A stretch of DNA of 64,000 bases from an uncultured Bacteroidia bacterium (lineage in GTDB: Bacteria; Bacteroidota; Bacteroidia; Bacteroidales; UBA932), in assembly GCA_902780935.1 (NCBI GenBank), contig CACZHP010000011.1, forward strand, positions 1 to 64,000. Reading direction: 5' to 3'. Shown in pieces: positions 56,567 to 64,000 of the stretch. Below the pieces are notes generated by a model. It worked only from the letters and a program-made list of their open reading frames with translations. It ran no database searches and was not told where the DNA came from. The translations under genes and the position numbers were made by a program. Position 1 is the stretch's first letter. The number at the start of each line of letters is the position of its first letter.

Positions 56567-56651
56567 GCCTTGGTGGTGGAATGGTAGACACGAGGGACTT
56601 AAAATCCCTTGGCCCGAAACGGCTGTGCGGGTTCGAGTCCCGCCCGGGGCA
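56567..56651 (+). tRNA. tRNA-Leu (UAA)
   Basis: 85-nt cloverleaf: acceptor GCCTTGG/CCGGGGC (two G-U pairs), D-arm around GTGGAATGGTAGACAC, anticodon stem AGGGA/TCCCT with loop CTTAAAA (anticodon TAA at positions 34-36), long variable arm (TTGGCCCGAAACGGCTGT) as expected for class II tRNA-Leu, and T-arm GCGGGTTCGAGTCCCGC. The 3' CCA is not encoded. Nothing in its sequence is odd. Beyond it composition changes to AT-rich and the defence genes start. Confidence 0.95.
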
Positions 56652-56652
56652 C

Positions 56653-56844: not shown

Positions 56845-57189
56845 TTAAAGGTCCCAAAAGGACACGCCGCCTTTCAGAAATCGCCTGAACTTTCCCACCT
56901 CAGATATTTGTTCAGCTGGGCTGAGGGCATGAAAAAGAATCTTTCGAAGTTCACTATCTCCTGCCGCCCCAAGCAGTTCTATCTCCAATTCATCGATAAT
57001 GTACAAATCCCCATAAAGATACAACCCCGTCTTCTCATCATGGAACCGGCGGCAGGTGTCGCTTCTATAGAACACATCCAAAGCTTCCGTAAGGGAAATA
57101 CGGAAAAGCTCGGACATCTTTGCAACGATGCAACCGATTCTATTGTGCAGAATGATTTTGCGAACTTGGAGGTGTTCTTCCGGGGTCAT
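56845..57189 (-). CDS. small DUF3791-like protein
   Basis: 114 aa, cytoplasmic. The middle (KMSELFRISLTEALDVFYRSDTCRRFHDEKTGLYLYGDLYIIDELEIELLG) resembles DUF3791, a short helical domain often found next to toxin-antitoxin or surface-exclusion genes. The tail after this is unlike the family and may result from an old frameshift. It begins 12 bp after the rhuM stop, so is at the 3' end of the RM operon. Similarity is by recall only. Confidence 0.5.
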   Translation of the reverse strand: MTPEEHLQVRKIILHNRIGCIVAKMSELFRISLTEALDVFYRSDTCRRFHDEKTGLYLYGDLYIIDELEIELLGAAGDSELRKILFHALSPAEQISEVGKFRRFLKGGVSFWDL

Positions 57190-57201: not shown

Positions 57202-58212
57202 TTATTTCTTTCCCTCCAGCAGTTGATTGACTTCCTTGTCAAAATCAGAAATAATCTTCTGGGTCTTGTTGAATTCAAAATACTCAGACTCTGCTTTCTT
57301 TTTGGCTTGTTCGTGCGAAATCAGTCCCTTACTATGATCAGGAAGGATCTCATAACGTCGGAAAGCCAGGAACTCATTGACGCTGGCGGCGAATTGTTCC
57401 ATTGTAAACGTGTTTTCTCGCTCGATAAGGTCTTCAATATAATCGAAATAACCGGACACGGCCCGCTCCAACCTACGAATATCTTTCTCTTCCAAGTAGT
57501 TCTTAGCAATGGTCACGTCTGACTTCAAGATTCGTCCATCCGGCGAATTCTTCCATGTTGTCAGTCCCATATTCTCTTTCGTCCGGTCGGCACGTTCATA
57601 AACAATCTCCGCCGCTGTCTTGCCGGCAATGGCATAGTGAAACTTGTTCTGCACCATCGCATAGAAGTCTTTGGTTGTCGGCGCAGTCTTGTCATAGTCG
57701 ATGCTGCACTCGGCGTAGATGTCGGTTATCTGCTGCCAGATGCGTCGTTCGCTCGCCCGTATGGACCTGACACGCTCCAGCAACTCCCGGAAATAATCTT
57801 TTCCGAAGATGGCCCCTCCATTCTTCATCCGTTCGTCATTCAGTACGAACCCTTTCTTGATATACTCCTTCAAGACTGACGTTGCCCAAATCCTGAACTG
57901 TGTTGCCCGTGCGGAAGAAACGCGGTAGCCGACGGAGATAATCATATCAAGGTTATAGAAGTCGATTTCTTCCGAAATCTGCCCTCTGAAGCCCCTCTGG
58001 ACGACTGTTTCAATTTTTGTAACAGTCGTGGAAGGATCTAGTTCCGAGGACTCAAAAATGTTACTAATATGACGGCTGATCGAAGCGACTGTCACTCCGA
58101 ACAATGCTGCCATCGCCTTCTGTGTCGCCCAAATCGTTTCGTCTTTGAGCACCACGTTCACCTTCACATCCTCGGTAGGGGTGTTGTATATGAGTAGTTC
58201 AAAATCTTTCAT
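57202..58212 (-). CDS. rhuM: RhuM-family protein
   Basis: 336 aa from the ATG at 58212 (MKDFELLIYNTP). The upstream frame start at 58284 overlaps the small ORF and is rejected. Typical RhuM features: WATQKAMAALFGVTVASISRHISNIF (DNA-binding-like N-terminus), YNLDMIISVGYRVSSARATQFRIWATSVLKEYIKKGF and a C-terminal charged helix. Known from Salmonella pathogenicity island 3, with unproven function, and common beside restriction and other defence genes. 10 bp after the 59-codon ORF in the operon. Confidence 0.85.
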   Translation of the reverse strand: MKDFELLIYNTPTEDVKVNVVLKDETIWATQKAMAALFGVTVASISRHISNIFESSELDPSTTVTKIETVVQRGFRGQISEEIDFYNLDMIISVGYRVSSARATQFRIWATSVLKEYIKKGFVLNDERMKNGGAIFGKDYFRELLERVRSIRASERRIWQQITDIYAECSIDYDKTAPTTKDFYAMVQNKFHYAIAGKTAAEIVYERADRTKENMGLTTWKNSPDGRILKSDVTIAKNYLEEKDIRRLERAVSGYFDYIEDLIERENTFTMEQFAASVNEFLAFRRYEILPDHSKGLISHEQAKKKAESEYFEFNKTQKIISDFDKEVNQLLEGKK

Positions 58213-58222
58213 AGAGCAAAGG

Positions 58223-58402
58223 TTATTGATTAAGTTGTCGACAAATCTCTTCCAAATATTTTGAAAGGTGATTGACGTCGTCAATCTGAGAACAATAGTA
58301 ATCAGCTACCGGACGGGGAAAGCTGGCATAGACTGCGCTTTTGAGCAAACTGACAAAGGCCTCTTTACGGATATCGTTTATTATGTCCTGCTGTGTTATC
58401 AT
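58223..58402 (-). CDS. 59-aa ORF between hsdM and rhuM
   Basis: ATG at 58402, TAA at 58223-58225. Sequence reads MITQQDIINDIRKEAFVSL, then SAVYASFPRPVADYYCSQIDD and a helical end HLSKYLEEICRQLNQ; amphipathic, soluble. Placed 10 bp before the rhuM start, in the same direction as the whole island. A second overlapping reading frame (58365-58472, 35 aa, MVIKFENPSITWLPNQML) lies just upstream of it and may also be expressed. Too short for standard ORF calls. No family recognised. Confidence 0.45.
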   Translation of the reverse strand: MITQQDIINDIRKEAFVSLLKSAVYASFPRPVADYYCSQIDDVNHLSKYLEEICRQLNQ

Positions 58403-58524: not shown

Positions 58525-60111
58525 TTAGACAATAGGTGGTAGCCCCAACTCTTTAAGAAACGCATTGTGCTTGTCACGGGCCTCCTGTATTTTTTTTTCA
58601 ATGTCCTGCAGTTTTTTGTTTACTTCAAAAAGGTCAATTTGTTTTTCCTCTTGAGAGAGGTTAACATAGCGGGTAATATTGAGATTGTAATCGTTCTCTT
58701 TAATCTCTTGAAGAGTAACTGGACGAGAATAGCGTATCTCTTCCTTGCGGAATTGATAGGTTTCGACAATTTTGTTTACGTCTTCAGGGCGAAGGTGGTT
58801 CTGACGCTTCCCCTTCTCGTAATGCTCTTCTGAACTCGCATTGATGAAAAGGATGCTATCGTTCTTCCGGCACTTCTTGAGGACAAGGATACAGACAGGA
58901 ATTCCAGTGGAGTAAAACAGATTCCCAGGCAGGCCGATGACCGCATCGATATTGTCATCCTCCAGTAGCTTCTTTCTTATCTCGTACTCCTTACCGCCAC
59001 GGAAGAGAACACCGTGAGGAAGGATGATGGCCATCGTCCCGTTATCACTCAAATAGTGGAAACCGTGAAGCAGGAAGGCAAAGTCTGCGGCCGATTTGGG
59101 CGCAACGCCATAACGGCTGAACCGGAAGTCTTTTGCGGTTTCTTCTGTTGGATCCCATCGAAGGCTGAAAGGAGGGTTGGCAACCACAGCGTCGAATTCA
59201 ATCTTCTTGGCAGGGTTCAGCTCCGTCAGAATATCCCAGTCGTTCACAAGTGAGTCACCATGGTGTATCTCGAACTCCGTATCCTTGACACCATGAAGAA
59301 GCATATTCATCCTGGCCAAGTTGTACGTGGTGATATTCTTCTCCTGTCCATAGATTTTACCGATAGAATACCCTTCCATTTCGTGCCGGACATTCAGAAG
59401 CAACGAACCGGAGCCACATGCGAAATCCAACACCTTGTCTATCTTTTTCTTCTTCCCTGTCCGGGGTTCCTGACAATCCAAGGTAACAATCTTGGAAAGG
59501 ATGGTCGATATCATTTGAGGTGTATAGAACTCTCCGGCTTTTTGTCCGGAGCCTGCGGCAAACTGGCCGATGAGGTACTCGTATGCATCCCCCAAAGCGT
59601 CTTCATCTGAAGAAAACTCCTCTAAGCCTTCGGCAATTGTTTTTATAACTTTAGCAATCAGTTTATTTCTATCTGGATAGCCTCTTCCAAGCTTGTCTGA
59701 ATTCAAATTGATTTCAGAGAATAGCCCTTTGAAGGAGGTTTCGAAAGATTCGTTTTCAATGTACTTGAATCCAGCTTCCAGGGTTTCCAGTAAGTCATTA
59801 CTCTGGGTTTTTGCCAAGTCAACGATGTTATCCCACAAATACTTTGGCTCAATCACATAGTGTATTTTCCGACGCATCTGTTTCTCAAAGAGGAACGTGT
59901 CATCGGGATTATGCTTATACCAGATATCCAGCGGTTCCCAGTCGCTTCCCAGTTCCCTCAGTGCGGCTTTTATATAATTATCCGACAAGTACTTCCAAAA
60001 CAGGAAGGACAGCATATAATCGCGGAAATCATCCGCCATCATGGCCCCGCGAAGATTATTGGCAATATTCCATAGTGTCTTGCCTAATTCATTTTGGTTA
60101 TTCTGTAGCAT
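58525..60111 (-). CDS. hsdM: type I restriction-modification methyltransferase, M subunit
   Basis: 528 aa. N-terminal helical domain (NIANNLRGAMMADDFRDYMLSFLFWKYLSD) followed by the AdoMet-dependent N6-adenine methylase core: VLDFACGSGSLLLNVRHEM (motif I) and VVANPPFSLRWDP (motif IV, NPPF). C-terminal region EIKENDYNLNITRYV is typical of HsdM. Modifies adenine in the recognition sequence read by HsdS, with two HsdM per complex. Lies 2 bp downstream of the PrrC-like gene in the same operon. Confidence 0.95.
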   Translation of the reverse strand: MLQNNQNELGKTLWNIANNLRGAMMADDFRDYMLSFLFWKYLSDNYIKAALRELGSDWEPLDIWYKHNPDDTFLFEKQMRRKIHYVIEPKYLWDNIVDLAKTQSNDLLETLEAGFKYIENESFETSFKGLFSEINLNSDKLGRGYPDRNKLIAKVIKTIAEGLEEFSSDEDALGDAYEYLIGQFAAGSGQKAGEFYTPQMISTILSKIVTLDCQEPRTGKKKKIDKVLDFACGSGSLLLNVRHEMEGYSIGKIYGQEKNITTYNLARMNMLLHGVKDTEFEIHHGDSLVNDWDILTELNPAKKIEFDAVVANPPFSLRWDPTEETAKDFRFSRYGVAPKSAADFAFLLHGFHYLSDNGTMAIILPHGVLFRGGKEYEIRKKLLEDDNIDAVIGLPGNLFYSTGIPVCILVLKKCRKNDSILFINASSEEHYEKGKRQNHLRPEDVNKIVETYQFRKEEIRYSRPVTLQEIKENDYNLNITRYVNLSQEEKQIDLFEVNKKLQDIEKKIQEARDKHNAFLKELGLPPIV

Positions 60112-60113
60112 CT

Positions 60114-61298
60114 TTATTCAAAGAAAATATCCGGTAATTCAAATTGATACTTTTTCGTAAATGCATCAAATACTTTCACAAACAGTTCGGCATTCTCTTT
60201 CATCATTCCACTAGGTGAATACAAAGAATACTTTCCATGACTCATGATATTTACAGCTCGAGCGTACAAATCCTTATCTTCTATTCCATCTAAACAATAC
60301 GAAAAGTCCTCTCTTCCAAAGAAAATAGATGTTTTTTCGAAGATCGAGCGAAGAATATTAAAATGGTAGGTTTTTAACAAATTGGATTGCACCATCCTTG
60401 GATTATTCTGCTCTCCCTCCTGATACTTTCTTACAACCTCCTTTATTTCACACAATTGTTCAATATGATGAAAGAATGGCGTGTCTTCAGTGGACTGTAA
60501 TCTATATGATTCGTCTTTAGCTTTATGGAGGAAGAATGATTTAGAATTACTATGCTTAAATTCATTATATATCACATTAAAAAATAAACTATGGTGAGAT
60601 GATATGATAAATTTTCTATTTAATTGCCTGTCTTTATTGTCTAAGATATCTTGCTTTATTAGACCGGCTAAATCAGATGCTAGCATAATAGCATTGTTCT
60701 CATCTAACGAAGAAATAGGGTCATCAACATAAATATACTTAACCCACTTATACTCTTCATGACCAGATATGACAAGTTCCAGAATCGCAAGAAAAACGGA
60801 AAAAATAAAAATGTTTTCTTCTCCCCTCGATATTTTGATATTGCTTTCGACTATTGTTTTAGGCTCACGGTTGTTGGGATTCTCTGGATGATAGTTCGGA
60901 TTCGGAATCTCTCTGCTAAATACTACTTTCCAAGAATCATAATCGAATTTGAAATCAAACTGTGCATACCTGTCCAAATGATTATGTATCTTATCTTCCA
61001 GAGATAACCCTTTCAGTCCTTTAAAAAAGGAAGAAGTTTCATTAATCTTCAAAAACCTTTCCTTATCCTCCGCTAAATCATTATTCCACGTGAACAAATC
61101 CTCTGTAAAAGCGTTATAGTACAACGTATCTGGTCCAGCAGTAGCTTTTTTACCTCGGTCCTTAAAAGATACCGATAAGCGAGTTTTCCCTGTTCTATTA
61201 AACGCGAATAATAACAGAATATCATAGGTCTTTAATTCATCCCTAAATCTGTTAACAATATTCCTGAGGGTCTTATATTTTCTGATTGCTGCTTTCAT
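60114..61298 (-). CDS. prrC: PrrC-like anticodon nuclease
   Basis: 394 aa, close to the 396 aa of E. coli PrrC. ABC-type ATPase features: Walker A-like FAFNRTGKT (31-39, first Gly replaced), signature ISRGEEN (156-162), Walker B YIYVDDPISSLDE (188-200) and switch His SSHHS (233-237). After it lies the nuclease domain: Arg317 and Glu321 in LRSIFEK, His354 in MSHGKY. This copies the PrrC triad Arg320-Glu324-His356 in both spacing and place. In E. coli, PrrC is silenced by a type I RM complex and released when a phage inhibitor disables it, cutting tRNA-Lys. Here it sits between hsdS (6 bp) and hsdM (2 bp), unlike EcoprrI where it is between hsdS and hsdR. Confidence 0.85.
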   Translation of the reverse strand: MKAAIRKYKTLRNIVNRFRDELKTYDILLLFAFNRTGKTRLSVSFKDRGKKATAGPDTLYYNAFTEDLFTWNNDLAEDKERFLKINETSSFFKGLKGLSLEDKIHNHLDRYAQFDFKFDYDSWKVVFSREIPNPNYHPENPNNREPKTIVESNIKISRGEENIFIFSVFLAILELVISGHEEYKWVKYIYVDDPISSLDENNAIMLASDLAGLIKQDILDNKDRQLNRKFIISSHHSLFFNVIYNEFKHSNSKSFFLHKAKDESYRLQSTEDTPFFHHIEQLCEIKEVVRKYQEGEQNNPRMVQSNLLKTYHFNILRSIFEKTSIFFGREDFSYCLDGIEDKDLYARAVNIMSHGKYSLYSPSGMMKENAELFVKVFDAFTKKYQFELPDIFFE

Positions 61299-61304
61299 AT
61301 CTTG

Positions 61305-62564
61305 TTATCTATTATTCGGAAAGAGAACTTGCATTAATCCTCTTTTTTGCTTTTCAAGCATGGAGAGTTTCTTCGAATATAACTCTTCTAATTGATTAAA
61401 GGAGACGATAGCAGATGCCACTTTCCTCTGCTCTTCAATCGAAGGTATAGAAATATGAATCCGAGAGAAATTATCATAAAACAAATAGTTTCTTATGCCT
61501 CCTTCTACATTATTCTCTACTGCTTTTTGAAATGCGTATGAGTCCATAAAACACTTCAAAAAACCATCATCTACACTATTAGTTGTTTTGAAACAAACAT
61601 ACAAAGAACTAATCAAGCCTTCCTTAATACCACCACTATATCCAAATGAACCAACATTAATTCTTGCCGGGTTATACGCAAACAGGTTGCTTGTCACAAT
61701 TTTATATGCAGAGGTGTCGTATCCTCTGCTTTTACTATCAATCCCTTCAAATTGCTCAGATTGCATGACAAATCCACGTTTGTTATTAATTGAATATATC
61801 GGTAAACTCCGATTACTCTTATTTCTTTTATTAACAATCCTTGTAACATCCCCTAAGGTTTTAGAATCCCATGAGATATCATTTAAAAAAACAGGAAAGC
61901 GATATTCTGGAAGAGTCTTCCCTGGAGCCGGAAATAGTTTTTGCATCAAGCCACTCTTGTGGGCTTTGAGTAGAGCCAGCTTTTCTTTTGACGCTGCGAT
62001 ACATTCGTCCAAAGATGACAAGAGAGATGAAATTACATTTTGTTCTTTTATTGAAGGAAGAGGTATTACTAATTGCTTAAAAGCAGGCATGTTGACAGAA
62101 AGAAGCCCACCGCTATTAGTATTCTTTTTGCACCATTCATCAATGATAAACATATATTGATGAAAAAACATCATATCTATTTGTTTATCATGCGATTTAC
62201 GTTTTGTCAAAAACGTAAATCGCTGATTCGCAAGCGAATCAGTAATTATAAGAGCATGTTCGCCAATCGTAGCAGTAGTTGCAACAATAATAGAGTACGC
62301 AGGGAACAATCCTGTTCCTTTCACGGCTGCCGGTGTTATGTGCTGAATAGAATCGGATAGGATGTGTCCATTCTGCCGGATATCTTCCATCCTAAACCAA
62401 GGGATGGTCCCACCCTCCCAATAATTGGGATTAGACTTGGCCGGCGTGTAGCCATTCCTTATCTCAAATAACTCTTCTAAGGTATAGGTTTCCCATTCCC
62501 CATCATTCTTGAATTCAGGGAAACGGAGTTTGGGAAGATATTTTTCTATTTGTTTATCGGCCAT
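61305..62564 (-). CDS. hsdS: type I RM specificity subunit
   Basis: 419 aa from the ATG at 62564 (MADKQIEKYLPKLRFPEF). Two target-recognition domains, each opened by a similar phrase (LRFPEFKNDGEWE at about 13 and YRFPVFLNDISWD at about 215) and each followed by a conserved coiled-coil spacer (EKLALLKAHKSGLMQKLFP; KKLSMLEKQKRGLMQVLFP). Reads a bipartite DNA target and carries two HsdM and two HsdR. Its sequence is visibly richer in AT than the rest of the window. The hsdR stop lies 15 bp upstream. No recombinase or partial hsdS copy is seen in the window, so there is no sign of phase variation. Confidence 0.93.
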   Translation of the reverse strand: MADKQIEKYLPKLRFPEFKNDGEWETYTLEELFEIRNGYTPAKSNPNYWEGGTIPWFRMEDIRQNGHILSDSIQHITPAAVKGTGLFPAYSIIVATTATIGEHALIITDSLANQRFTFLTKRKSHDKQIDMMFFHQYMFIIDEWCKKNTNSGGLLSVNMPAFKQLVIPLPSIKEQNVISSLLSSLDECIAASKEKLALLKAHKSGLMQKLFPAPGKTLPEYRFPVFLNDISWDSKTLGDVTRIVNKRNKSNRSLPIYSINNKRGFVMQSEQFEGIDSKSRGYDTSAYKIVTSNLFAYNPARINVGSFGYSGGIKEGLISSLYVCFKTTNSVDDGFLKCFMDSYAFQKAVENNVEGGIRNYLFYDNFSRIHISIPSIEEQRKVASAIVSFNQLEELYSKKLSMLEKQKRGLMQVLFPNNR

Positions 62565-62579
62565 AATTGTCACAATCAA

Positions 62580-64000
62580 CTATTCTTCATATGCGGATAG
62601 GCCGGAAATCTCCTGCCCAGGAAGCATACGTCTGATAAGAGGAGCAAGGTCTGTCATTACTTCTGTCTCTTTGCGCGTGCGGTCTCGCCAGCCAAGATTC
62701 AAAGGCTCAAGCAGTTCATTCAATTTCTCTCCATCGAAAATCTTCCGTTCAACAATGTCATTCACAAAAGACCGTAAAGCAGAGACACGTATATGATGCT
62801 TGTCTGCGATAGCTATCATTGCCTGCGCATATTTCTCCGTCTTGAAAACCTCGTACCCGTCTTTAATCTCCTGTTCGGTTTTGCCATTAACACCATCCAG
62901 ACTGTTGATGTAGTCAATGATATCCTCCCGCTCTTCCAAAAGATTAGCACTGGAACGAATGAGATTAATCAAGTCTTCCTTGGTCATTTTCCAAGTCATC
63001 GGATCTCCCACGTGCTTGGCGACCAAGTCCATGATGTAGTCATAGTCAATCAACGCCGATGCGAACAGAACAAACTCAAAATCCAAGTCCTCGACTTCCT
63101 CTGAAACGCTCTTATCTCGTTTCTCCCGACGTGATTTCATATCTTGAGCCAGATCCAGATAGGCACCCCGGAATGCCTTGAGTTCGTCATCGGAGAAAGA
63201 AACTCCGTAAGATACCGCGGGCTCACACAATAATCCAGCGGCCGGGGCCTCGACAGGAACTATGTCGGTATATTGGTCCAACTGGGTTTTTAGCCTCTGC
63301 AAACTCTTGAAACACTGAATGAAACTGGCTCTGGCTTCATCTCCTTTCAGATTGTGAACTTCCTCTGCCTTGAAAGGCAAGTTATGGGAGTACATAAAGT
63401 CTCGAAGCTGTTTAACGGCATCTTTAAACTTTTGCTGGATGACAGAGACAGGCTCTACTAACCAAATCTGTCGGGCGCGCTCTTCCTCCTGCTCGCCTGA
63501 AAAAAGGGCAATGGCAGTATCCACAGCGTCCTTTTGCCCGCGGAAATCAAGGATGTTGCCATAAGGCTTCGTATCATTGATAATACGGTTTGTGCGAGAG
63601 AAGGCCTGTACCAGATTATGATATTTCAGGTTCTTATCGACATACAGCGTATTCAAATACTTGGAATCGAAACCCGTGAGCAACATATCAACGACAATGG
63701 TGATGTCGATTTTGTTTTTATGAGCATAGTCCTTATTACTGTACTGCTGATTCTTGATACGCTGCTGAATGTCCTGATAGTAGGCATCGAAGTCGTAAAT
63801 GGAATGATTGGTTCCAAATTGTTTATTGTAGTCCTTGATGATTTCCGTCAGTGCGTCTTTCTTTTCCTCCGGAGCCTGCTGGTTGTCCAATTTCTCCTGA
63901 AGTAAATCTTCCTGGAATTGGGCGATATCTTTGTTCCCCTCTGCCGGTGGAGTGAATACACAAGCAATATTCAGTGGCTCATAATCCTGATGGCCCGACA
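62580..64000 (-). CDS. hsdR: type I RM restriction subunit, C-terminal part (5' end beyond window)
   Basis: 473 codons, open to the window edge; the residues nearest the edge read SGHQDYEPLNIACVFTPPAEG. Includes the second helicase lobe: IDITIVVDMLLTGFDSKYLNTLYVDKNLKYHNLVQAFSRTNR, containing motif V (TGFD) and motif VI (QAFSRTNR). The C-terminal 300 aa are helical, as expected for the HsdM-binding end. N-terminal nuclease and first helicase lobe are beyond the window. It is first in the operon hsdR-hsdS-prrC-hsdM-ORF59-rhuM-DUF3791. Confidence 0.93.
   Translation of the reverse strand, partial: SGHQDYEPLNIACVFTPPAEGNKDIAQFQEDLLQEKLDNQQAPEEKKDALTEIIKDYNKQFGTNHSIYDFDAYYQDIQQRIKNQQYSNKDYAHKNKIDITIVVDMLLTGFDSKYLNTLYVDKNLKYHNLVQAFSRTNRIINDTKPYGNILDFRGQKDAVDTAIALFSGEQEEERARQIWLVEPVSVIQQKFKDAVKQLRDFMYSHNLPFKAEEVHNLKGDEARASFIQCFKSLQRLKTQLDQYTDIVPVEAPAAGLLCEPAVSYGVSFSDDELKAFRGAYLDLAQDMKSRREKRDKSVSEEVEDLDFEFVLFASALIDYDYIMDLVAKHVGDPMTWKMTKEDLINLIRSSANLLEEREDIIDYINSLDGVNGKTEQEIKDGYEVFKTEKYAQAMIAIADKHHIRVSALRSFVNDIVERKIFDGEKLNELLEPLNLGWRDRTRKETEVMTDLAPLIRRMLPGQEISGLSAYEE

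Follow-up and report, generated by a model that had tools for sequence, protein, structure and literature searches.

In Escherichia coli, the type IC restriction-modification (R-M) enzyme EcoprrI guards a tRNA-Lys anticodon nuclease, PrrC (EcoPrrC), and a 2025 review terms PrrC an R-M guardian. Further literature drawn on comprises PMC13191261, PMC9296519 and PMC12707154. PrrC orthologues are reported always to accompany type Ic systems (PMC2610378), and a 2013 paper already counts PrrC among the HEPN RNases, whose motif is Rx4-6H (PMC3710099). According to a 2022 paper, the R-M-linked HEPN RNases characterised up to then all came from E. coli; PrrC170 of Klebsiella quasipneumoniae came later, and is reported to act against at least phages T1 and T7, to arrest growth and, by tRNA sequencing, to hit tRNA-Lys (PMC11555353). 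Here we describe a prrC-like gene in a stretch of 64,000 nucleotides (hereafter the window) from an uncultured Bacteroidia bacterium of the Bacteroidales (lineage UBA932; assembly GCA_902780935.1, contig CACZHP010000011.1, positions 1 to 64,000). Its product is very probably a PrrC-family anticodon nuclease kept latent by the surrounding type IC-like restriction enzyme, whichever tRNA it cuts; as regards nuclease activity, target, trigger and latency we argue by analogy with the characterised relatives. The locus is a further example of a known and widespread family and no new type of system, and adds one genome to the R-M guardian strategy, in which restriction is combined with a tRNA-cutting fail-safe. 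The gene is as follows.

60114–61298, minus strand: prrC-like gene, 394 amino acids (aa), with an ABC ATPase domain (approximately residues 7–284) and a C-terminal HEPN-like nuclease domain

The frame runs uninterrupted through 394 codons from the ATG at 61298 to the stop at 60114, while on the plus strand of the same interval the frame examined is interrupted by many stops, and an open reading frame (ORF) wholly contained there reaches 82 aa at most. An earlier, sequence-only reading had placed an ABC-type ATPase at this interval, leaving the strand unstated, and had called its length near-identical to that of PrrC; both points hold, the product matching the PADLOC PrrC model PDLC02360 (E = 2.3e-117, residues 6–387) and measuring 394 aa against the 396 aa of EcoPrrC. 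In Pfam only the broad AAA_13 family was matched (E = 1.3e-10), and a scan of NCBIfam gave no match. Judged by its sequence, the window protein is a full-length member of the PrrC family. ABC ATPase motifs are present in its N-terminal two thirds, and the AlphaFold2 model (predicted local distance difference test score, pLDDT, 88.9) has a compact ATPase without a long coiled-coil or Rad50-type insert; Rad50/SMC heads were the top matches when approximately residues 7–282 were compared with known structures. Structure alignments comprised 49/113 homologues and the window protein. A PDB sequence search with the single protein returned nothing convincing (top row E = 0.4), a search with the whole-protein profile returned nothing at 0.01, and the phage records searched held no match.

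These data also bear on whether the gene could encode an RloC-type anticodon nuclease, which would respond to DNA damage instead of R-M inhibition. RloC has the catalytic triad and the ATPase motifs in common with the window protein, and the AAA_13 match would suit it equally; it is, however, approximately twice as long, carries a zinc-hook insert and is seldom found in R-M operons (PMC2610378). At 394 aa the window protein falls inside the PrrC range of 341–416 aa and outside the 658–897 aa of RloC (PMC2610378), its model is without the long coiled-coil insert, and its gene lies inside an hsd operon. We rejected the RloC assignment as contradicted by length and architecture, and consider it extremely improbable.

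For comparison, 133 loci were assembled, consisting of 12 stretches (own locus included), eight plasmid loci (picked by hand out of 40 listed, the matching records numbering 113), 80 homologue stretches and 33 of 41 viral loci. The sample is biased towards the window: of 588 candidate stretches at least 525 were relatives, and the best 80 of these were kept. Eight viral loci were left out, five for having long RloC-like frames (L155, L156, L158, L159, L162) and three for having no match (L157, L160, L161). The alignment of 136 rows adds three enterobacterial sequences (L163–L165), among them the E. coli PrrC reference (L164, annotated 'anticodon nuclease', 396 aa), which was found by way of a Klebsiella plasmid homologue, lies in the order hsdM-hsdS-prrC-hsdR and has D287, R320, E324 and H356 where the literature places them. 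A tree of 133 rows (all but L032, L033 and L085) was computed by a quick method with Shimodaira-Hasegawa approximate likelihood ratio test (SH-aLRT) support and rooted at the midpoint for drawing; its long-branch warnings include the window. Three clades were resolved: clade 1 (103 rows, support 99) contains the window, clade 2 (25 rows, support 99) contains E. coli PrrC, and clade 3 holds five rows (support 100). Identity to EcoPrrC in this sample is 29.3–37.5% in clade 1, 49.7–91.2% in clade 2 and 31.3–33.5% in clade 3, the window protein itself being 34% identical.

The residues that carry the family assignment are located as follows.

61182–61205, minus strand: Walker A motif, residues 32–39, AFNRTGKT (family form A-x-N-x-x-G-K-T)
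60483–60485, minus strand: Asp272, aligned with EcoPrrC Asp287, the putative wobble-base contact
60348–60350, minus strand: Arg317, aligned with EcoPrrC Arg320; Arg in 134/134 rows with a residue, two gaps
60336–60338, minus strand: Glu321, aligned with EcoPrrC Glu324; Glu in 134/134 rows with a residue, two gaps
60258–60260, minus strand: Arg347, the Arg of the HEPN Rx6H motif that ends in His354
60237–60239, minus strand: His354, aligned with EcoPrrC His356

The triad R317-E321-H354 proposed in the sequence-only reading thus aligns with R320/E324/H356 of E. coli PrrC. That reading had also named homologues which lack the triad yet keep their position beside R-M genes as evidence that would count against it; the 136 rows did not refute it and provide a single exception, as His354 is His in 132, Arg in one (L098) and a gap in three. 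The gaps belong to L032 and L033, which stop before the C-domain, and to L085, which stops before the His. The exceptional copy (L098:251-1444) comes from a Planctomycetota contig and, with its catalytic His replaced by Arg, is possibly inactive. Arg317 and Glu321 lie on one helix (311–326) of the model. In the Walker A motif, the Ala at position 32 had been singled out as worth testing; it is indeed present, although it is not noteworthy, being shared by 135 of the 136 rows, EcoPrrC among them, while Gly37, Lys38 and Thr39 are found in all 136. Arg35 cannot be called unusual either, occurring in 31/136 rows, all of which fall in the window's clade. A further well-conserved stretch of the N-domain, LYYNAFTEDLFTWNN (in E. 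coli LYYNAFTEDLFYWDN), is probably the PrrC box of 15 residues.

The C-domain bears the HEPN motif in the form R347-x6-H354, and the Arg347 column contains R in 128 rows, D in four, K in one and a gap in three. Foldseek with this domain gave no match at E 0.001 or better (first row a flagellar chaperone, E = 0.64), and the best row of a PDB search with the domain profile (CCR4-NOT, E = 0.03) was taken as chance. In a second structural comparison, against 405 chains, ranks 1–7 were all HEPN toxins, with modest Z scores and from proteins that are not independent, several being entries of one toxin-antitoxin pair; for four of the seven, whose entry titles do not say HEPN, we presume the label. 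The model thereby suggests a four-helix HEPN fold for the C-domain.

Conservation also allows us to weigh the possibility that prrC is a dead or decaying copy hitch-hiking in the operon. Such a copy might explain the long terminal branch of the window (0.91, against a median of 0.17), and none of the 18 further genomes searched within the genus gave a match, leaving no close relative for a selection test. Against this, the frame is full-length, the triad is complete, and, of the 105 columns conserved to at least 95% in the remaining 102 rows of clade 1, only three are changed in the window (W166F, C167S and I376V), so that the long branch does not reflect core decay; nine of those 102 rows differ at more of these columns. 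Core decay was rejected on this count, and we hold a dead copy to be most unlikely.

The surrounding operon comprises the following genes.

62580–64000, minus strand: C-terminal part of hsdR; the whole gene (996 aa) reaches contig base 65570, past the window end
61305–62579 (likely ATG 62564), minus strand: hsdS, specificity subunit; Pfam Methylase_S, E = 7.5e-35, in two stretches
58525–60111, minus strand: hsdM, type I methyltransferase subunit, 528 aa; NCBIfam TIGR00497, E = 1.7e-117

As stated in the sequence-only reading, prrC lies between hsdS and hsdM, and its separation from them by 6 and 2 bases, respectively, gives the genes the look of one transcription unit. The hsdR product carries the domains HSDR_N, SWI2_SNF2 and EcoR124_C and matches EcoR124 HsdR at E = 9e-119, while HsdM matches the EcoR124II M subunit (E = 1.4e-85) far better than that of EcoKI (E = 1e-15). 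EcoR124I is a type Ic enzyme, and Stp targets type Ic enzymes while sparing EcoKI and EcoBI (PMC3014915). From this similarity to EcoR124 the R-M system around prrC appears to be type IC-like. The minus-strand gene order is hsdR-hsdS-prrC-hsdM, followed by a 59-aa ORF, rhuM and a 114-aa gene; the earlier observation that it differs from EcoprrI, in which the order is hsdM-hsdS-prrC-hsdR (PMC3014915), is correct. It is nonetheless not an oddity, since in 94 of the 104 clade-1 loci the closest of the searched hsd matches are an hsdS preceding and an hsdM following prrC, the remainder having hsdR before prrC (five), a second hsdS after it (one) or a contig edge (four). With rhuM and other genes ignored, the gene after prrC is hsdM in 102/104 clade-1 and 5/5 clade-3 loci, and hsdR in 22/22 clade-2 loci. 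All 133 loci, our own included, have at least one match to hsdR, hsdS or hsdM in the fetched stretch. The order hsdR-hsdS-prrC-hsdM is thus the commonest in a sample that leans to the window's relatives, and is tied to clades apart from that of the E. coli prototype. In three loci (L023, L024 and L042) the hsdS matches are located downstream of hsdM, one per strand, with none between hsdR and prrC, an arrangement that would suit an invertible, phase-variable cassette of specificity genes. In another (L035, a Klebsiella quasipneumoniae plasmid), two further genes, annotated as a TrlF family ATPase and an RNA-binding-domain protein, stand between hsdR and hsdS of the prrC operon.

Extension of the PrrC logic to this locus, as the sequence-only reading proposed, is consistent with the family hidden Markov model, the triad, the ABC motifs, the length, the HEPN motif and the hsd operon. 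By analogy with the characterised relatives, the window PrrC would bind the HsdRMS complex and stay silent until a phage enters and inhibits the restriction enzyme, in the manner of T4 Stp acting on EcoprrI. The nuclease so released would cleave the anticodon loop of a tRNA, most likely that of tRNA-Lys(UUU) on the 5' side of the wobble base, whereupon translation, and with it the spread of the phage, would stop.

Concerning the target, EcoPrrC peptide 284–294 crosslinks to the anticodon stem-loop of tRNA-Lys, and Asp287 is thought to touch the modified wobble base (PMC3014915). This segment is not conserved in the window protein, where STEDTPFFHHI aligns with E. coli KYGDSNKSFSYHLHL. Since the tRNA-Lys recognition segment (approximately residues 284–303) is, according to the same source, kept in a subset of PrrC homologues only (PMC3014915), its absence bars the window protein from the EcoPrrC subset and not from the PrrC family. 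Throughout the window's clade (104 of the 133 loci) a different conserved segment, commonly D-T-P-F-F-H-H, stands in place of the peptide. The genome encodes at least tRNA-Lys(UUU), with the loop CTTTTAA, and tRNA-Lys(CUU), as judged from the 30 of 45 tRNA places that were read, and may have more tRNA-Lys genes. The E. coli tRNA-Lys(UUU) has the same loop. A pattern of the E. coli-type tRNA-Lys stem-loop run against the genome matched once, at a non-tRNA place.

It is conceivable, if rather unlikely, that the diverged recognition segment directs the window nuclease to a target other than tRNA-Lys under the same family membership and guard logic, a variant within the explanation preferred here, with which its confidence overlaps. 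In its favour, the segment is unlike that of EcoPrrC in all 104 rows of the clade, and substrates are expected to vary (PMC3014915). Against it, the Asp287 equivalent is retained as Asp272 and is D in 84 and E in 15 of the clade's rows (99/104). Moreover, PrrC170, which hits tRNA-Lys, has the listed order HsdR, HsdS, PrrC, HsdM of the window and a reported identity of 35% to EcoPrrC, similar to the window's distance, albeit in another host (PMC11555353); that identity argues against clade 2 and fits clade 1, the presumed clade of PrrC170, with clade 3 (31.3–33.5%) as a possible home also. By analogy, then, tRNA-Lys is the likely target of the latent nuclease described here, and there is a small chance that in parts of its clade recognition is aimed at a tRNA, or a wobble modification, different from that of E. 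coli tRNA-Lys. From clade to clade the recognition segment switches as a block and the triad is constant, which gives the substrate question a concrete form. The five clade-3 loci (L027, L028, L029, L030 and L151), which are hsdR-S-C-M operons, keep the triad, with Asp287 replaced by N in three and K in two and the HEPN Arg347 missing in four; their PrrC may cut another tRNA.

Of 393 genomes of the order, 12 (its own included) have strong matches to the window protein, at E 6.5e-61 or better, two of these matches being truncated by contig ends; nine more have weaker ones, with frames of 573–810 aa that are RloC-like by length only. At the family level, strong matches were found in three of 199 genomes, its own included, and weaker ones in four (frames of 744–1041 aa). 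Horizontal gain of the prrC island is a fair inference. Downstream of hsdM the following features were found.

57202–58212 (better start ATG 58212), minus strand: rhuM-family gene, 336 aa; Pfam Virulence_RhuM, E = 1.7e-103; PADLOC PDC-S05, E = 6e-154
58223–58402, minus strand: 59-aa ORF, a doubtful gene; no family in Pfam, PADLOC or NCBIfam
56845–57189, minus strand: 114-aa gene; PADLOC candidate family PDC-M13C, E = 1.5e-8; no Pfam or NCBIfam match

The rhuM gene, correctly reported in the sequence-only reading, has the same direction as the prrC operon; it probably forms a defence module of its own or an auxiliary one and is not needed for the PrrC interpretation. A 2013 paper had already linked PrrC-like proteins and R-M genes with RhuM (PMC3710099), and the window has the same gene combination, with rhuM after hsdM, whereas in several fetched loci rhuM lies between the hsd genes. 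Matches to rhuM, at varying positions, were seen in at least 16 of the 133 loci (own included), a lower bound because many stretches are short and a single query was used. Of the small downstream ORFs noted earlier, the 114-aa gene stands by virtue of its PADLOC match and is possibly a DUF3791 protein; the 59-aa ORF is doubtful, for among 295 genomes searched within the order it was matched in one, namely its own, and it may be no gene, so that a role as antitoxin or tuner was set aside. Upstream of hsdR, just past the window end, is an AbiEii-type nucleotidyltransferase gene (contig bases 65690–66382, minus strand; Pfam AbiEii, E = 4e-11), which together with a tRNA-Leu gene beyond the opposite, downstream end gives the locus the look of a small defence island.

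This adjoining tRNA-Leu(UAA) gene (window 56567–56652, plus strand) is intronless. Five genomes belonging to its family (L213–L217, one of the same genus) have the matching gene split within the anticodon, at the equivalent of window base 56601. One literature search, at the level of listed titles, found none naming such split tRNA-Leu(UAA) genes, and ARAGORN called no tRNA at them. The inserts measure 216–240 bases (one 724), and each scores 50.3–55.9 bits, where the Rfam cut-off for group I introns is 50.
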